Origin: Phycisphaerales bacterium
Lineage (GTDB): Bacteria > Planctomycetota > Phycisphaerae > Phycisphaerales > UBA5793
Assembly: GCA_020852515.1 (NCBI GenBank)
Contig: JADZAS010000023.1
Span: forward strand, 1 to 64,000
DNA: 64,000 bases
Direction of reading: 5' to 3'
The notes under the pieces are model-generated. The model worked only from the letters and a program-made list of their open reading frames with translations. It did not search any database and was not told the origin of the DNA. Both the position numbers and the translations under genes were made by a program. This document shows positions 12,708 to 20,266 of the stretch, one piece after another; the first letter of the stretch is position 1, and the number at the start of each line of letters is the position of its first letter.

Positions 12708-12761
12708 AGTGCCTTCGCAAGCGACCACTTTGAACAACCCAAGGTCGCGCGAAGGAACGCC

Positions 12762-15392
12762 ATGAGCACCCCCACCCCCCGCCGAGCCAGCCGGTACTGC
12801 CGAACCACTTCCCCCGCCGACGCCCGACCGGTCTTCAACCCGCTCGAGCCCCGGCGGCTTCTCACGGTGATCGTTCCGCACCTGATTTTCGATCCGACCG
12901 GGGCGGCGCCGGCTCACGTGGGTTCGCTCAGCGCGCAGGGCCAGACGGCCGAGTTTTTGTTCACCGCAGGCAACTCCGGTTCTGCCGAGTTCGATCACGG
13001 CGGCTCGGGCTCGGATGCCGACCTGACGATGCGCCTCTATCGAGGCAATGAGCTCCTCGCCACTGAAGACGACGGCGATGGGAGCACCGGCCTGGCGGCA
13101 AGCGTCTCCGAGGGAGCCGAGTACCGCCTCGTCATCACGTCAAACGTCGCGTCGCCCGTCGGCTACAGCGCCTCACTCCATCTGCCGACGCCGCAGATCA
13201 TCGACGCCAGCCCCAACAGCGGCGGCGACTTCGAAAGCGGCCTGCTGCGCTTCGACACCGCGACCCAATCCTGGTACTTCGCGTACACCGCGCCTTCCAG
13301 CGGCCTCATCGAGGTCGAGGCCGAGAGCGACGACGTCCGCCGCAACGGCGAGGACTTTGACACGGACCTCTTCGTCTTCGACGCCTCCGGCAACGAGATC
13401 CATCGCGATGTGAACCCGCAAGACGAGGGGCGATGGAACGCGTCGGTCGTCGGCGGCCAGACTTACACGTTCCTCGTCCGCCAGGACATCTCCGGCTTTG
13501 ACGTCGGCACCTTTACGTTCAAACTCGAAGGACCTGAAGGCAACGGAGGAGGCGGAGGCGGAGGAGGCGGTGGAGGCGGTGGAGGTGGCGGCAACAACGG
13601 CAACAACCTCCCGCCGAGCCTCTCGGCGACACCCGGCATCGTCCGGCACGGCGACACGCTCACACTGCTCATCGAAAACGACGGGCACGGCGGCGGTCGG
13701 CACAGCGGCAACGAGTTCGAAGTCCGCCGCGCCTGGTTCTACCGAGATACCAACCACAGCGGATCACTCGACAGCGATGATGCCCTGCTTGGCACAGACT
13801 TCAACGACGACTTCGGGTTCCGCTGGGTCGGCGGTGTCAGTCACACATGGGGAACCGGAGACCAGGGCTTCTTTGCTGTCATCGAAGATGAGAACTTCTC
13901 CACGCGGACCCTGTCCGCCACGGTGACCATCGACAACAGCGCGGCCGCGAACCAGATCTCCATCTATGAAGAGGACGGCGACGAGATCACCCTGAGCCTC
14001 AAGGGCTCCAGCGGCACCATCAGGTATGAGACCGACGATCACGGCGGCATCGCCCGGATCATTCTCGACGGCGAGGACTTCTCCAGTGGTAAGCTGTCAT
14101 CGCGCCTGCGGCGCGGCAGCAACAGCGATGGCCGCCTCTCCGTCGGCGAACTGGTCGGGGAAGACGGCCTTCCCATCGAATCGCTCAGGCTGCGCACCAT
14201 CGATCTGCGCAACGTCGATTTCACCGGGCAGGGCCTGATGATCAACGGGGCCGACACGGTCATGCTCGGCAGCCTCAGTGGCGACGCCTCGATCAGCGGT
14301 TCCGTCCGCCGTCTGACGCTCGGAAGCGTCGATACTGACGGCTCATTCGACCTCGGCGACGTTACGTCGATCACCGCAGATTCGCTCAACGTCCGTGGAG
14401 GCCTGCGTATCAGGTCGGTAGGTTCGATCAATATCAAGGGTGACGGTCACTTCAGCTTCGATGCCGGTGACGACAACTCCCCCACCACCATCAACCGCAT
14501 CCGCGTGCGCGGTGACGCCTCGGGTCAATGGACCTTCCGCGGCGAGACCGAAGTTCGCAACGTCATCATCGACGGCCGTGGAGAACTCGAACTCAACGAT
14601 GATCGCACCGGCCGCTCGTCGGTGCGCAAGATCACCGTGCGAGGTGACGATGATTTCTCCAGCATGCACATCGAGATGGAGCACCTCCAGCGCCTCGACA
14701 TCCACGGCGGGCTGCGACTGATCGATGACAGCGACATCCGCGGCCTGCTGAACATGCGAATCCGCGGGTCGTTCGAATCCGGATCGCTCAACCTGGTCGG
14801 CGAGGACAACGTCAAGATCCGCGTTGACGGCGACGTCGCGGCCGGCGCCATTCTCAACGTCGACGGCGGCTCCCTGGATGTCCGCGGCGACGTGCACGGA
14901 ACCGTCAACATCGACAGCGCCCGCAAGGCCGACGTACGCGGCGATCTGGCCGGCGGAACGCTCAACTTCACCAACTCCGAGTCCACCCGGCTCCACGTCC
15001 GCGGCGACGCCCGCGAAGGGGCGACCATCTCTGCCGAGTCCTCCATGAGGGAAATCATGGTCGGCTCGCTCCTCGACTCCGCCATCTACATGGGTCTTCG
15101 CAACTGGGGCGGCGGCCTGCCGGGATCATTCGCACAGTTCGATGCGCCTGAGAGCGTGCTGGAGCGCCTGACCGTCAAGGGAATCACCAGTGGCTCGACT
15201 ATCGCCGCGCCGCGTATCGAGCGGCTTGATCTGGGCCGCGTGTCCGACGCAGGTTTGACGCAGATCGGGGCTGGCTCAGTCGAAGAGGCTCGATTCAGCG
15301 CCGCAGATGGACTGCGCTACTTCCTCCGGGACGGCAGCCTGTTCGAAAGCGGGCCGGACCTGCCCTACCTGGATCTGCTGGAATTGATCTGA
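12762..15392 (+). CDS. Secreted LEPR-x-LL surface protein with beta-solenoid repeats
   Basis: 876 residues. The N-terminus carries FNPLEPRRLLT, the LEPR-x-LL motif typical of planctomycete exported proteins, instead of a plain signal peptide. Residues ~35-140 and ~145-255 look like two beta-sandwich domains of the pre-peptidase type (GRWNASVVGGQTYTFLVRQD). A run of 16 glycines (13545-13592) is a linker. After an Asp-rich domain (~280-400), the last ~450 residues are short parallel-beta units with recurring RGD/VRGD and SLDVRGDVHGTVNI-like turns, which suggests a right-handed solenoid. ATG 12762 is chosen over the upstream frame because of GAAGGA and the sigma-54 promoter. Probably an adhesin or envelope protein. 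Confidence 0.85.
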   Translation: MSTPTPRRASRYCRTTSPADARPVFNPLEPRRLLTVIVPHLIFDPTGAAPAHVGSLSAQGQTAEFLFTAGNSGSAEFDHGGSGSDADLTMRLYRGNELLATEDDGDGSTGLAASVSEGAEYRLVITSNVASPVGYSASLHLPTPQIIDASPNSGGDFESGLLRFDTATQSWYFAYTAPSSGLIEVEAESDDVRRNGEDFDTDLFVFDASGNEIHRDVNPQDEGRWNASVVGGQTYTFLVRQDISGFDVGTFTFKLEGPEGNGGGGGGGGGGGGGGGGNNGNNLPPSLSATPGIVRHGDTLTLLIENDGHGGGRHSGNEFEVRRAWFYRDTNHSGSLDSDDALLGTDFNDDFGFRWVGGVSHTWGTGDQGFFAVIEDENFSTRTLSATVTIDNSAAANQISIYEEDGDEITLSLKGSSGTIRYETDDHGGIARIILDGEDFSSGKLSSRLRRGSNSDGRLSVGELVGEDGLPIESLRLRTIDLRNVDFTGQGLMINGADTVMLGSLSGDASISGSVRRLTLGSVDTDGSFDLGDVTSITADSLNVRGGLRIRSVGSINIKGDGHFSFDAGDDNSPTTINRIRVRGDASGQWTFRGETEVRNVIIDGRGELELNDDRTGRSSVRKITVRGDDDFSSMHIEMEHLQRLDIHGGLRLIDDSDIRGLLNMRIRGSFESGSLNLVGEDNVKIRVDGDVAAGAILNVDGGSLDVRGDVHGTVNIDSARKADVRGDLAGGTLNFTNSESTRLHVRGDAREGATISAESSMREIMVGSLLDSAIYMGLRNWGGGLPGSFAQFDAPESVLERLTVKGITSGSTIAAPRIERLDLGRVSDAGLTQIGAGSVEEARFSAADGLRYFLRDGSLFESGPDLPYLDLLELI

Positions 15393-15442: not shown

Positions 15443-16894
15443 ATGGCTGCTGCCAAACTGCCCACGATCATCCAGGGCGGAATGGGGATCGGAGTATCCC
15501 ACTGGCCGCTGGCCCGCGCGGTTTCGCTGCGCGGCCAACTCGGCGTCGTTTCGGGTACAGCGCTCGACGCCGTCTTTGCCCGCCGCCTGCAGAACGGCGA
15601 TGTCGGCGGCCACCTCCGCCGCGCTTTGACCCAGTTTCCGATCCCCGGCGTCGCCGAGCGCGTGCTCGAACGCTACTTCATTGACGGCGGCCGCCGGCCC
15701 GGCGAGCCTTATCGAGCGACGCCGCTGCCGGCGTTGCAGCCGACGGCGCACCAACTCGAACTGCTCATCGCCGCCAACTTCGTCGAGGTCTTCCTCGCCA
15801 AGGAGGGCCACGCAGGCCTTGTCGGAATCAACTACCTCAGGAAGATCGAGCCGCCCACGCTGCCGTCCCTGTTCGGGGCGATGCTGGCGGGCGTCGATGT
15901 CGTGCTCATGGGCGCCGGCATCCCCACGACCATCCCAGGCATTCTTGATCGCCTGGCGCAAGGCCGCAGCGTTGAACTGCCCCTCGAAGTGCAGGAGGGT
16001 GAAAGCGCGCCGATGCACTTCGACCCGCGCGCCTTCTGCGAACTGCGCGGCGGCGCCATGCCACCACTTGAACGACCCGACTTCTACGCCATCGTTTCTT
16101 ACGACTCGCTCGCCACGATGCTCTCGCGCAAAGCCACAGGGCGCATCAACGGGTTTGTTATCGAAGATTTCACCGCGGGCGGCCACAACGCCCGGCCGCG
16201 CGGCCGCATGCAACTCAACGAACGTGGCGAGCCGATCTTCGGTCCGCGCGACGTGGCCGACCTGGCCGTATTTCGTGAACTCGGCGTGCCCTTCTGGCTC
16301 GCGGGCACTCGGGGCCACCCGGATCGCGTGCGCGAAGCGATTGAGGCGGGTGCGCAGGGGGTGCAGGTCGGCACTGCGTTCGCCTTCTGTGCCGAGTCCG
16401 CCATGACGCCGGATGTCAAGCGCCGCGTGTACGAAGCAGTGCTGGCCGACCGTGCTGACGTGTTGACCGACCCGCTCGCATCGCCGGCGGGCCTGCCCTT
16501 CAAGATCGTCCAGCTCGACGACACGCTCTCGGACTCGTGCCTGTACGAGGCCCGCCCGCGCTATTGCGACCTTGGCTATTTCCGACATGCATATCGGCGC
16601 GAGGATGGAAGCATCGGCTGGCGCTGCCCCGCCGAACCGGTGGACGACTACGTCCATCGCGGCGGAAAGGCCGAGGACACCGTCGGCCGCAAGTGTCTGT
16701 GCAACGGCCTGATCGCCGCCATCGGCCTGCCGCAGATTCGCAATGGAGGCGATGAGGAGCCGATGCTGATCACCGCCGGCCAGGGCCTGCGCGACATCGC
16801 CCGATACATCCGACCCGACGGGCAGTGCTACACGGCAGACGAGGTCGTTGACGACCTGCTCGCCGGCGCCATTGCGGCTCGTGCAAGCGCCTGA
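15443..16894 (+). CDS. FMN-binding nitronate monooxygenase / PfaD-like TIM-barrel enzyme
   Basis: 483 residues. The barrel begins IIQGGMGIGVSHWPLARAV, the usual FMN-site start, and has the AGGHNARPRG flavin loop and the phosphate-binding GAQGVQVGTAFAFC. The family oxidises nitronates or, as PfaD, acts as enoyl reductase with polyunsaturated fatty-acid synthases. The C-terminal ~120 residues (with several Cys: DSCLYEARPRYCDLGY, RKCLCNGL) extend beyond simple nitronate monooxygenases (~330) and fit the longer PfaD-like group. No polyketide or fatty-acid synthase genes are next to it, so the substrate is open. Convergent with the prepilin array. Confidence 0.8.
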   Translation: MAAAKLPTIIQGGMGIGVSHWPLARAVSLRGQLGVVSGTALDAVFARRLQNGDVGGHLRRALTQFPIPGVAERVLERYFIDGGRRPGEPYRATPLPALQPTAHQLELLIAANFVEVFLAKEGHAGLVGINYLRKIEPPTLPSLFGAMLAGVDVVLMGAGIPTTIPGILDRLAQGRSVELPLEVQEGESAPMHFDPRAFCELRGGAMPPLERPDFYAIVSYDSLATMLSRKATGRINGFVIEDFTAGGHNARPRGRMQLNERGEPIFGPRDVADLAVFRELGVPFWLAGTRGHPDRVREAIEAGAQGVQVGTAFAFCAESAMTPDVKRRVYEAVLADRADVLTDPLASPAGLPFKIVQLDDTLSDSCLYEARPRYCDLGYFRHAYRREDGSIGWRCPAEPVDDYVHRGGKAEDTVGRKCLCNGLIAAIGLPQIRNGGDEEPMLITAGQGLRDIARYIRPDGQCYTADEVVDDLLAGAIAARASA

Positions 16895-17704
16895 TCAATC
16901 CCAGTATGGCGTGGTTGTCTTCTCATCCGTCGCGCCGAAGAGGCCGAGCCACATGTCGCCGCCTTTTTCGAGGTCATCGACGCGGAAGAGGTTGTCGCCG
17001 TTCACTTCAAAGAGCTTTTCGCTCTCCGCGTTGAAGGTCAGCTTCTGAGAGTGGCCGTCGTTGAACATCACGTTGCCGGTCCAATCCGATGCATCGCCAT
17101 GACGCTTGTTTGTCTGCGAGTCGGCATTGAACGCGCCGTCCTTGGGCCCGCGATCCGCGAGCACGACAAACTTGCCGTTCAGCGAGTCGCACCATTCAGC
17201 TGTTCGCCGCGCGCCGAGAAGTGCGAGCATGGCATAGCTCACATTGGCTCCTGGCTTGGTGATATCGGCGCTGAAGTTCGGATCCCAGAGCCAGTAATCG
17301 TTCCAGTCCTTGTCATCCATCGTGCCATACCGGTAGTCCTTCTTGACGACGACGTTCGGATTCGCCTCGTCGGGACAAACGGTGATCTCTGGCGAGTAGT
17401 AGGTATTGAAAATCATGTACGAGATCACATTGGCCGTGGAGTTACCCGACTGCGAGTTCGCGGCTGCCGTCTTTGCAGAGATCTTGTTGGGGATGGGAAA
17501 CTGGCCGCCAAAGTCGTTCGCGAAAAGCACAAGACCCTTGTGCATTTGGGAGAGGCGCGTTGAGCACAGCCGCGATCGATCACGGACTGGCTGACTCGAG
17601 TAGCTCGGGTATACGAGCACCAGTAGAAGCACACCGCAGGCGATCAGGGTGAGAAGCTCAATCACAGAGAACGCACGGCGACTCGGTGTCAAGGCACGAT
17701 TCAT
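16895..17704 (-). CDS. Prepilin-like protein 4 of tandem array (Ala at cleavage site)
   Basis: 269 residues from ATG 17704 with AAGGAG upstream; the frame is open further but that part is not coding-like. A short basic leader is followed by RRA-FSVIELLTL and a hydrophobic helix: a type IV prepilin/pseudopilin N-terminus, but with Ala instead of Gly before the cleavage point. The globular domain has the NDFGGQFPIP, NTYYSPEITVCPDEANPN and WTGNVMFNDGHSQ segments seen in planctomycete DUF1559-like proteins and ends TTTPYWD. Last gene of a four-gene unit transcribed from 20266 leftwards. Likely an exported filament or secretion-system subunit. Confidence 0.82.
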   Translation of the reverse strand: MNRALTPSRRAFSVIELLTLIACGVLLLVLVYPSYSSQPVRDRSRLCSTRLSQMHKGLVLFANDFGGQFPIPNKISAKTAAANSQSGNSTANVISYMIFNTYYSPEITVCPDEANPNVVVKKDYRYGTMDDKDWNDYWLWDPNFSADITKPGANVSYAMLALLGARRTAEWCDSLNGKFVVLADRGPKDGAFNADSQTNKRHGDASDWTGNVMFNDGHSQKLTFNAESEKLFEVNGDNLFRVDDLEKGGDMWLGLFGATDEKTTTPYWD

Positions 17705-17799
17705 CGCATCACGCTCCTTCCGGGAGAGTTGTGGAATGCATGATTCTACAGGTGGCGCGACGATGCAGGCAATGATCGAATTCCCGGCGGCTGGCTGAA

Positions 17800-18618
17800 T
17801 CAATCCCAATACGGCGTGGTTGTGTTCTCATCCGTCGCGCCGAAGAGGCCGAGCCACATGTCGGCGCCTTTTTCGAGGTCATCGACGCGGAAGAGGTTGT
17901 CGCCGTTTACGTTGAACGCGTTGGGGTCCCTGGACGTAAACGTAAACTTCTGCACGTGGCCGTCGTTGAAGGCGACATTGCCGACCCAATCCTTCGTGTT
18001 GCCGTGGCTCTTCATGGTGACCGATTTGGCGTTCCAGGCGCCGTTCTTTGGCCCGCGATCGCTCACTACGGCAAAGTTCGGGTCGAGCGAGTCGCGCCAC
18101 TGGTTCTTCTTGCGGTCGCCGATCATGGCGAGTGTGGCGTAACTCACGTTCGCGCCGGGCTGCGAAATATCGGCGCTGAAGTTGGGGTCCCAAAGCCAGG
18201 CGTTATTCCAGTTCGGATCGTCCATCGTGCCGTAGCGGTAATCACTCTTGACGACAAGATTCGGACTCGCGTCTTCCGGGCAGGTGATGACTTCAGGCGA
18301 GTAGTAGGTGTTGAATGTCATGTAGGAGAAGAGGCTCGCGGACGAGTTACCGGTCTGCGTGGTGACCGCCGCGGTCTCGGGCGAGATGTCCATGGGGATC
18401 GGATAGGTTCCGCCGAAGTCGTTGGCGAAGAGGATGAGGCCTTTGTGGATCTGCATCGCTCGTGTGGAGCACGTCAAAGTCTTGCCGCGCCCGCCGCGCG
18501 GACGATTGCACGCGCGCAACACGATCCCCATCCCCAGAACAACCGCCAGCACCATGATCACGACGATCGCGTCGAGAAGCGAGAAGCCGCGGCGCATTGA
18601 CCAGTTCCGCGTTCGCAT
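17800..18618 (-). CDS. Prepilin-like protein 3 of tandem array (Asp at position +5)
   Basis: 272 residues from ATG 18618, with AGGAG about 11 bases upstream. The N-terminus reads MRRG-FSLLDAIVV: Gly is present at the cleavage site, but the almost invariant Glu at +5 is Asp. The rest follows its neighbours: NDFGGTYPIPMDISPETAAV, YYSPEVITCPEDASPN, DWVGNVAFNDGHVQKF, and VDDLEKGADMWLGLFGATDE shared with the gene at 16895. An extra Cys-Arg-rich stretch (RACNRPRGGRGK) follows the membrane helix. Spacing to the gene at 16895 is 95 bases, larger than in the rest of the array. Confidence 0.82.
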   Translation of the reverse strand: MRTRNWSMRRGFSLLDAIVVIMVLAVVLGMGIVLRACNRPRGGRGKTLTCSTRAMQIHKGLILFANDFGGTYPIPMDISPETAAVTTQTGNSSASLFSYMTFNTYYSPEVITCPEDASPNLVVKSDYRYGTMDDPNWNNAWLWDPNFSADISQPGANVSYATLAMIGDRKKNQWRDSLDPNFAVVSDRGPKNGAWNAKSVTMKSHGNTKDWVGNVAFNDGHVQKFTFTSRDPNAFNVNGDNLFRVDDLEKGADMWLGLFGATDENTTTPYWD

Positions 18619-18636
18619 CCTGCACACTCCTCATCA

Positions 18637-19446
18637 TCAATCCCAGTACGGCGTGGTCGTCGTTTCATCGGTCGCGCCGAAGAGGCCGAGCCACATGTCG
18701 CCTCCCATGCTCCCGTCGTCGGCAAAAAAGAGGTTGTCGCCGTTGATGGCGAAGCTCGGTGAGTCCTTGGCCCCGAAGACCGATACCTGCACGCTCCCAT
18801 CGTTCATCGCGACGCTCCCTTTCCAGGCATCGCGATTGCCGTGGTTCTGCAAGGTGAGAGATTTCGCATTCCACACCCCATCCTTCGGTCCGCGATCGCC
18901 GGCCACCGCGAAGTTCGGGTCGTTGAGGTACTTCCAGTGGTTCGTCCTGCGGTCACCGATCATTGCGAGCGTCGCGTAGCTGGCATTGGCGCCCCATTGG
19001 GTAATGTCCGCGCTGAGGCTCGGGTCCCACTTCCAGGCAGTGTTCCAGCCCTCGTCGTCCGGCGTTCCGTAACGATAGTTGGTCTTGACGACAAGGTTCG
19101 GGTTTGCATCGCTCGGGCACGTGATCGCGTCAGGCGAGCAATAGGTGTTGAAGATCAGGTAGGAAAAGAGGTTGGCGGACGAGTTGCCAGATTGCTTGCT
19201 CAGCGCAGCCGTCTCGGGCGAGATGCCCATCGGGATGGGGTAGGAGCCGCCGGAATCGTCGCTGTAGAGTGCCACCCCCACGCAGATCTGCCGGACGCGT
19301 GTCATGCAACGTACTTGAGGACTCACGCCACAAGTCGTGCCATTCACTCGCCAGAGTAACCAGAAGAGTGCTGCGCAGACGAGCACCACTACAAGAAGTT
19401 CAATGAGCGTGAAACCGCGGCGGACTGGCCTGTTCGAAGCTCGCAC
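18637..19446 (-). CDS. Prepilin-like protein 2 of tandem array (canonical signal)
   Basis: 269 residues from GTG 19446, chosen because AGGAG stands seven bases upstream and the peptide then runs directly into RRG-FTLIELLVV, a textbook prepilin cleavage site with Glu at +5. The membrane helix is followed by a Cys-containing segment (GTTCGVSPQVRCMTRVRQIC). The C-terminal region has GDNLFFADDGSMGGDMWLGLF, the version shared with the gene at 19460. Its stop codon lies 18 bases upstream of the start at 18618. Confidence 0.85.
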   Translation of the reverse strand: MRASNRPVRRGFTLIELLVVVLVCAALFWLLWRVNGTTCGVSPQVRCMTRVRQICVGVALYSDDSGGSYPIPMGISPETAALSKQSGNSSANLFSYLIFNTYCSPDAITCPSDANPNLVVKTNYRYGTPDDEGWNTAWKWDPSLSADITQWGANASYATLAMIGDRRTNHWKYLNDPNFAVAGDRGPKDGVWNAKSLTLQNHGNRDAWKGSVAMNDGSVQVSVFGAKDSPSFAINGDNLFFADDGSMGGDMWLGLFGATDETTTTPYWD

Positions 19447-19459
19447 GGCACACTCCTCA

Positions 19460-20266
19460 TCAATCCCAGTACGGCGTGGTCGTCGTTTCATCGGTCGCGC
19501 CGAAGAGGCCGAGCCACATGTCGCCGCCCGTCTCACCATCGTCGGCGAAGAAGAGGTTGTCGCCGTTCGCGGCGAATGGCGCCGCGTCCTTCCTTGTGAA
19601 CTTCATGCCGCGCACGCTGCCGTCGTTGAACGCGACGTTGCCGGTCCAGTCATCGCGCTTGCCATGGCTGAGCAGTGTCAGGGACTTCGCATCCCAGACG
19701 CCGTCCCTGGGTCCGCGGTCGGCCGCCACGGCGAAGTTGGGATCGAGCGAGTCGCGCCACTGGTTCTTCGCACGATCGCCGATCATCGCCAGCGTGGCGT
19801 AACTCACGTTCGCGCCTGGCCGCGTGATGTCGGCGCTGAAGCTCGGGTCCCATTTCCAGGCGGGGTTCCAGTTCGGATCATCCTGCGTGCCGTAGCGGTA
19901 GTCGGTCTTCACGTCCACATTGGGATTTGGGTCGCCGGGGCAAATGACAAACTCCGGCACGGAGTACGTTTCGAACACCATATACGAAAGCAGATTGGCG
20001 GACGAGTTGCCGGATTGAGCGCCGATCGCCGCCGTCTCTGGTGAGATTTCCATGGGGAGCGGATACACGCCGCCGGAGTCGTTCGCGTAGAGGAGAAGTC
20101 CCTTGTAGAGCTGATTCGATCGAGTCTGACAGGTCAGCATGTCGTTGTGCTGGTGGTGGCTCGACGCGGGCATCAGGATTACGACGAGTAAGACGAGCAC
20201 CACGAGTACAACGATGAACTCGATGAGCGTGAAACCGCGGCGGACCGGACGAGCCTCTCTGTTCAC
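19460..20266 (-). CDS. Prepilin-like protein 1 of tandem array (canonical signal)
   Basis: 268 residues, first gene of the array. GTG 20266 has GAGAGGA upstream. Leader MNREARPVRRG, then FTLIEFIVVLVVLVLLVVI: canonical cleavage by a PilD-type peptidase is expected. The globular domain shares NDSGGVYPLPMEISPETAAI, a Cys-Pro-Gly-Asp loop, DWTGNVAFNDGSVRG and the TTTPYWD end with the other three. A tandem set of major or minor pseudopilins is common in planctomycetes; whether they form a filament is not known from the sequence. Confidence 0.85.
   Translation of the reverse strand: MNREARPVRRGFTLIEFIVVLVVLVLLVVILMPASSHHQHNDMLTCQTRSNQLYKGLLLYANDSGGVYPLPMEISPETAAIGAQSGNSSANLLSYMVFETYSVPEFVICPGDPNPNVDVKTDYRYGTQDDPNWNPAWKWDPSFSADITRPGANVSYATLAMIGDRAKNQWRDSLDPNFAVAADRGPRDGVWDAKSLTLLSHGKRDDWTGNVAFNDGSVRGMKFTRKDAAPFAANGDNLFFADDGETGGDMWLGLFGATDETTTTPYWD

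Follow-up and report, generated by a model that had tools for sequence, protein, structure and literature searches.

Asp5 as a conserved trait of one member of a tandem prepilin-like array in a Phycisphaerales bacterium

The window analysed here is a 64,000-nucleotide stretch (positions 1 to 64,000 of contig JADZAS010000023.1, GenBank assembly GCA_020852515.1) from the genome of a Phycisphaerales bacterium, referred to below as G000. Positions 16895-20266 are exactly filled by four co-directional genes on the - strand, P1 to P4, each encoding a protein that resembles a type IV prepilin. A first, sequence-only reading of the stretch had described the processing signals as RRG-FTLIE in P1 and P2, RRG-FSLLD in P3 and RRA-FSVIE in P4, and these were confirmed from the sequence. 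Glu is present at position +5 in P1, P2 and P4, and Asp in P3. Glu5 is regarded as near-obligatory for filament assembly. By sequence comparison Asp5 is a true departure from this rule, a conserved and selected trait of one member of the array. The same reading had treated both the Asp and the Ala at position -1 of P4 as meaningful; the first part stands in altered form, whereas the second does not, Ala-1 being ordinary in this genome. The explanation that we favour, and to which we give about an even chance, is that P3 is a processed, specialised subunit that co-assembles into a type IV filament, the array as a whole having arisen by tandem expansion, within this genus, of a prepilin family widespread in the planctomycete order.

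Conservation of Asp5 within the genus

The search collection included six genomes of the same taxonomic family, of which five belong to the genus; members of the family of proteins were found in 6/6. The four sister species carry three (G004), two (G009), two (G014) and one (G024) array genes, the contig of G024 ending about 0.3 kb upstream of its sole array gene. A P3 counterpart with Asp5 is present in all four genus members where one was found (4/4: G000, G004, G009 and G014, the fifth member being G024), in each case within the helix FSLLDA(I/F/L/L)VV, and G004 carries an additional Asp5 gene with the signal FSHFD. No membrane helix of the array is better conserved than that of P3, whose identity over six species pairs is 0.61-0.83, as against 0.10-0.52 for the P4 type (three pairs) and 0.33-0.59 for the P1/P2 types (six pairs); in matched species comparisons the P3 helix was the better kept in 5/5, with p<0.05 in four of the five, uncorrected. 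The Asp5 codons of the P3 counterparts are GAC, GAC, GAT and GAC, a synonymous change, and Glu is one third-base change distant. The purine/pyrimidine class at four-fold third positions is kept across all four P3 genes in just 22/72 cases; the codon evidence, which concerns one codon, is modest and goes with that from the helix as a whole. The six genomes of the taxonomic family were also searched for signals with Asp5 by a strict DNA pattern, R(G/A)F(S/T)xxD with hydrophobic residues at +3 and +4, which misses for example the FSHFD of G004. Seven matches were obtained, namely the four P3 counterparts and three non-prepilins.

It is very improbable, and was already disfavoured, that Asp5 and Ala-1 represent decay in pseudogenising copies that are no longer processed. 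P3 and P4 do score poorly against prepilin models, but 12/12 array members in the five genomes are open frames, and the ratio of nonsynonymous to synonymous substitution rates (dN/dS) in the globular domain is 0.10-0.27 across counterpart pairs (P3, 0.10-0.19; P4, 0.14-0.22; P1/P2 types, 0.16-0.27). Across the homologous arrays, whose comparison had been proposed at the outset, both altered residues are kept by position, Asp5 in 4/4 P3 counterparts and Ala-1 in 3/3 members of the P4 clade, and Ala-1 is in any case common genome-wide. The random loss in close relatives that would have indicated decay was not seen. Asp5 in particular is not decay, because it is kept in every P3 counterpart through a synonymous codon change, lies in the best-conserved helix, and has a parallel in a clade mostly without Glu5 elsewhere in the family.

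Residue 5 in the wider family

Of 301 genomes of the order, 194 contain the family by profile search (E<=1e-20). A census based on the prepilin model TIGR02532 is uninformative on position +5, since both the model and the signal-reading script favour Glu, and because of this bias the Asp5 DNA pattern and a census based on the globular domain were used instead. The regions for the latter were taken only among the matches listed, the better-scoring part of the 301-genome search, and every protein with a globular-domain match was included, giving 172 matches and 166 readable signals from 79 genomes and 40 genera; two unreadable signals, three truncated proteins and one duplicate were left out. 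Members were divided into those with canonical and those with divergent helices by residues +6 to +22 alone.

In this family, signals without Glu5 are associated with divergent helices. All 127 canonical-helix members have Glu5 (127/127), 24 of them with Ala-1, whereas among the divergent-helix members Glu5 is found in 22/39 and other residues in 17/39 (Asp 6, Gly 8, Leu 2, Ser 1). The association is strong (Fisher p=8e-13), a value that overstates independence because the family members are related. Whichever split threshold between 9 and 13 was used, every canonical member had Glu5, and by genus non-Glu5 signals occur in 9/18 of those with divergent members, compared with 0/31 of those with canonical members. 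A tree was built by a quick method from 82 globular domains. It groups twelve divergent members, from seven other genera, in one clade (98, starred), 11/12 of which are without Glu5 (Gly 8, Leu 2, Ser 1), and it requires the +5 state to have changed at least 8 times. The entries of this clade are L193, L190, L209, L199, L179, L206, L208, L211 and L057, and its eight Gly5 members share a similar helix, such as FSLLGLLVTLVC. A natural, apparently selected Asp5 subunit and a related Gly5 clade, in a family whose canonical members all have Glu5, would provide matched pairs for probing the role of residue 5. It is a rather unlikely but broader proposition that Glu5 subunits polymerise while the Asp5 proteins of this genus and the Gly5, Leu5 and Ser5 proteins of the seven other genera are separately evolved caps or low-copy spacers of mixed filaments, which would amount to a residue-5 position code independent of GspK.

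Ala at position -1

The Ala at -1 of P4 had been taken as non-canonical and as a possible block to processing. It is ordinary here: of all 77 genome matches to TIGR02532 at E<=10 (71 marked over cut-off), 53/77 have Gly-1 and 24/77, about a third, have Ala-1, a frequency that leads us to reject the idea that Ala-1 blocks the signal. In some cases Ala-1 genes adjoin T2SSE/T2SSF genes (e.g. C23:180001, C16:233620 and C29:18607), and in the globular-domain census Ala-1 is unlinked to helix divergence (8/39 divergent and 24/127 canonical members, Fisher p=0.82). Excerpts of a review state that the prepilin leader ends with Gly or Ala (PMC10191384), which also argues against a block, whereas those of an older review have Gly at position -1 without exception outside archaea (PMC4471445); the census is in line with the newer of the two. 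It is also a caution against applying the Gly-1 rule to planctomycetes. A single Peptidase_A24 gene was found in the genome, its 428-aa product having A24_N and A24 domains, the latter slightly under cut-off when the protein is scanned alone, and this one bifunctional prepilin peptidase probably handles both Gly-1 and Ala-1 signals.

The P4 counterparts of G000, G014 and G024 have Ala-1 in 3/3 (RRA, RRA and RHA), and P4, G014_D and G024_D make up one clade, with support of 96/99, when a tree is made from the globular domain only. The chance of 3/3 Ala-1 is 0.03 at the genome frequency and 0.007 at the family frequency, before shared descent is considered, so that the conservation is no strong evidence of function.

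A co-assembling subunit, a tip subunit or a membrane anchor

If P3 is a co-assembling subunit, the one bifunctional prepilin peptidase would probably process P1 to P4 alike, with Ala-1 as a normal cut site. After duplication the globular domains stayed under purifying selection as the membrane helices diverged, and P3 would have turned into a subunit of its own, marked by the closely kept helix FSLLDA(I/L/F)VV with its Asp5. In the filament it would be a specialised or low-copy partner of Glu5 subunits, and with Asp5 there would still be an acid to dock against the N-terminus of the neighbour, docking thus being weakened but not lost. According to the excerpts of the older review, cleavage does not depend on Glu5, and Glu5 mutants form no homopolymers but co-assemble with wild type (PMC4471445). 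In TcpB, a minor pilin of Vibrio cholerae, the E5D mutant is slightly impaired and E5Q and E5V show larger losses of function, as given in excerpts of PMC5207764. By analogy, this behaviour suggests that an Asp5 P3 is most likely cleaved, weakly docking and co-assembling, although the Asp5 of TcpB was made by mutation and that of P3 is natural and conserved. In the available portions of the position-5 literature, Asp5 was found only in this laboratory mutant. The sequences themselves show the signals, their conservation, the selection and the background frequencies; we infer cleavage, co-assembly and the choice among the several type IV machines that the genome has, as indicated by 17 T2SSE matches (16 over cut-off) and 18 T2SSF domain matches.

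The sequence-only reading had likened P3 to Glu-less, GspK-like initiators. That P3 is an initiator or tip subunit of this kind is improbable. It lacks Glu5, as do tip-capping subunits (excerpts of PMC10191384) and, likewise, the GspK/PilK tip pseudopilins, but GspK is characterised by a hydrophobic +5, a size larger than other pseudopilins, a position at the 3' end of the cluster and a T2SSK domain (excerpts of PMC5207764). P3, in contrast, has an acidic +5, is 272 aa long as against 268-269 for its neighbours, is the third of four genes and has no T2SSK match; a separate gene of the GspK family, above cut-off, lies elsewhere in the genome at C21:49742.

Several observations weigh against the proposal that P3 assembles into a filament. 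Pilus machinery is absent from the 64 kb window, all T2SSE and T2SSF matches lying elsewhere in the genome. In favour of the proposal, a divergent Glu5 member of the family in the sister genus G019 (L237:8469-9383) is directly upstream of genes matching PilM and, weakly, PilN, followed by relatives of PilB, PilT and PilC, but its orthology to the array is not one-to-one, and the link that it provides between the family and a pilus machine is therefore indirect; collinear PilM-PilC machinery in the genome of the window (C11:127212-139023, L238) is without an adjoining family prepilin. The helices of P1, P2 and P4 drift strongly, unlike those of subunits packed in a common core. The P3 group is no clade in the globular-domain tree, although a tree forcing the group is not rejected (p-AU 0.36). 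The failure to recover it is probably due to exchange of sequence between paralogues, the globular domains of which can equal counterparts in likeness within one genome (0.79 for G004_A and G004_C). In addition, only five members of the genus are known, and the four sister assemblies are from metagenomes or uncultured organisms.

The main rival, which we regard as a serious possibility but not a probable one, is that the array products are surface or periplasmic proteins, anchored in the membrane, which use the class III signal for insertion and never assemble, +5 being relaxed and the P3 helix kept for some other membrane partner. It stays alive because of the strong drift of the other helices, and is consistent also with the lack of nearby machinery and of Glu5 in 17/39 divergent helices as a class. 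There is a precedent in the bindosome, in which surface sugar-binding proteins have class III signals (excerpts of PMC4471445), and most prepilin-motif proteins of Tuwongella immobilis have an SBP_bac_10 domain (excerpts of PMC8567305). Relaxation at +5 sits poorly, however, with a P3 helix that retains an acid at that position and is better conserved than any other in the array, and with the retention of Glu5 in 22/39 divergent members.

Three near-alike loci with prepilin and T2SSE/T2SSF genes were also seen in G000 (C29:18224-21965, C37:93349-97090 and C39:17347-21082), and these include matching MTLVE and MTLIE signals.

Array layout, relatives and neighbourhood

The genes of the array (Table 1) are separated by gaps of 13, 18 and 95 nt. 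The start codons given are the likely ones, and by eye each is preceded by a purine-rich, potentially ribosome-binding stretch. P2 to P4 are paralogues of P1 (56-64% identity) with almost identical C-terminal ends. Each of the four has the features of a class III signal peptide, a hydrophobic helix preceded by a short basic leader with Gly or Ala as its last residue, and with the globular domain and the presence of a bifunctional prepilin peptidase in the genome, as well as Phe at +1, they resemble type IV prepilins and pseudopilins. They differ in the Asp5 of P3, in a C-terminal domain for which no Pfam or NCBIfam model was above cut-off, and in their poor recognition by prepilin models: Pfam N_methyl is passed by P1 and P2, P3 is under cut-off and P4 has no match, and NCBIfam TIGR02532 matches only P1 and P2 among the four. 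As TIGR02532 matches just 2/12 array members in the five genomes, most would be overlooked as prepilins by routine annotation.

Table 1. Genes of the array, selected signal codons and neighbouring genes in the window
Feature	Coordinates	Strand	Details
P1, prepilin-like	19460..20266	-	268 aa; start GTG 20266; signal RRG|FTLIEF; N_methyl and TIGR02532 above cut-off
P1 signal codons	Gly -1, 20236-20234; Glu +5, 20221-20219	-	
P2, prepilin-like	18637..19446	-	269 aa; start GTG 19446; signal RRG|FTLIELL; N_methyl and TIGR02532 above cut-off
P3, prepilin-like	17800..18618	-	272 aa; start ATG 18618; signal RRG|FSLLDAI; Asp +5 codon GAC 18573-18571
P4, prepilin-like	16895..17704	-	269 aa; start ATG 17704; signal RRA|FSVIELL; Ala -1 codon GCG 17674-17672
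Nitronate monooxygenase-like gene	15443..16894	+	PF03060; convergent neighbour of the array, context only
Large glycine-rich LEPRRLLTV protein	12759-15389		no Pfam match

The array proteins contain a stretch, H...W.GNVAFNDGH, that resembles H-X9-DG. TIGR04294, which we take to be the H-X9-DG prepilin-associated domain, was not among the NCBIfam matches at E<=1 for P1 to P4 or for two paralogues on C25. An AlphaFold2 model of P3 made from 12 sequences was unusable (mean pLDDT 38.5), and a sequence search against solved structures gave a single weak N-terminal match, to geopilin domain 1 (7tgg_A, E=0.015, profile positions 5-64). A search of the genome with P1 gave 27 matches, comprising the four array proteins, the C25 pair (E 5e-76 and 6e-38), which has the standard helix FTLIELLVVIAIIALLIG, and 21 weaker ones confined to the N-terminal part. 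The planctomycete prepilins with SBP_bac_10 (DUF1559) also combine a prepilin signal with large sets of paralogues (excerpts of PMC8567305), but the array and the C25 pair are outside all 20 PF07596 matches of the genome. Among open-licence papers on pilin position 5, on planctomycete or Phycisphaerae pilins and on tandem arrays, none was recognised as dealing with the array family, the latter two groups being judged by title or abstract.

The LEPRRLLTV protein is beside the array in 5/5 genus members. The nitronate monooxygenase-like gene adjoins the array in G004 and G009 as well as in G000, in all three between the LEPRRLLTV protein and the array, and is not there in G014 and G024. Next in line in G004, G009 and G024 is what, from its sequence, is presumably a thiazole-synthase-like gene. 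Finally, WYBR01000131.1 (L079) is titled Vicinamibacteraceae, but its array and neighbouring genes are those of the planctomycete genus, and it is probably from a mislabelled assembly.

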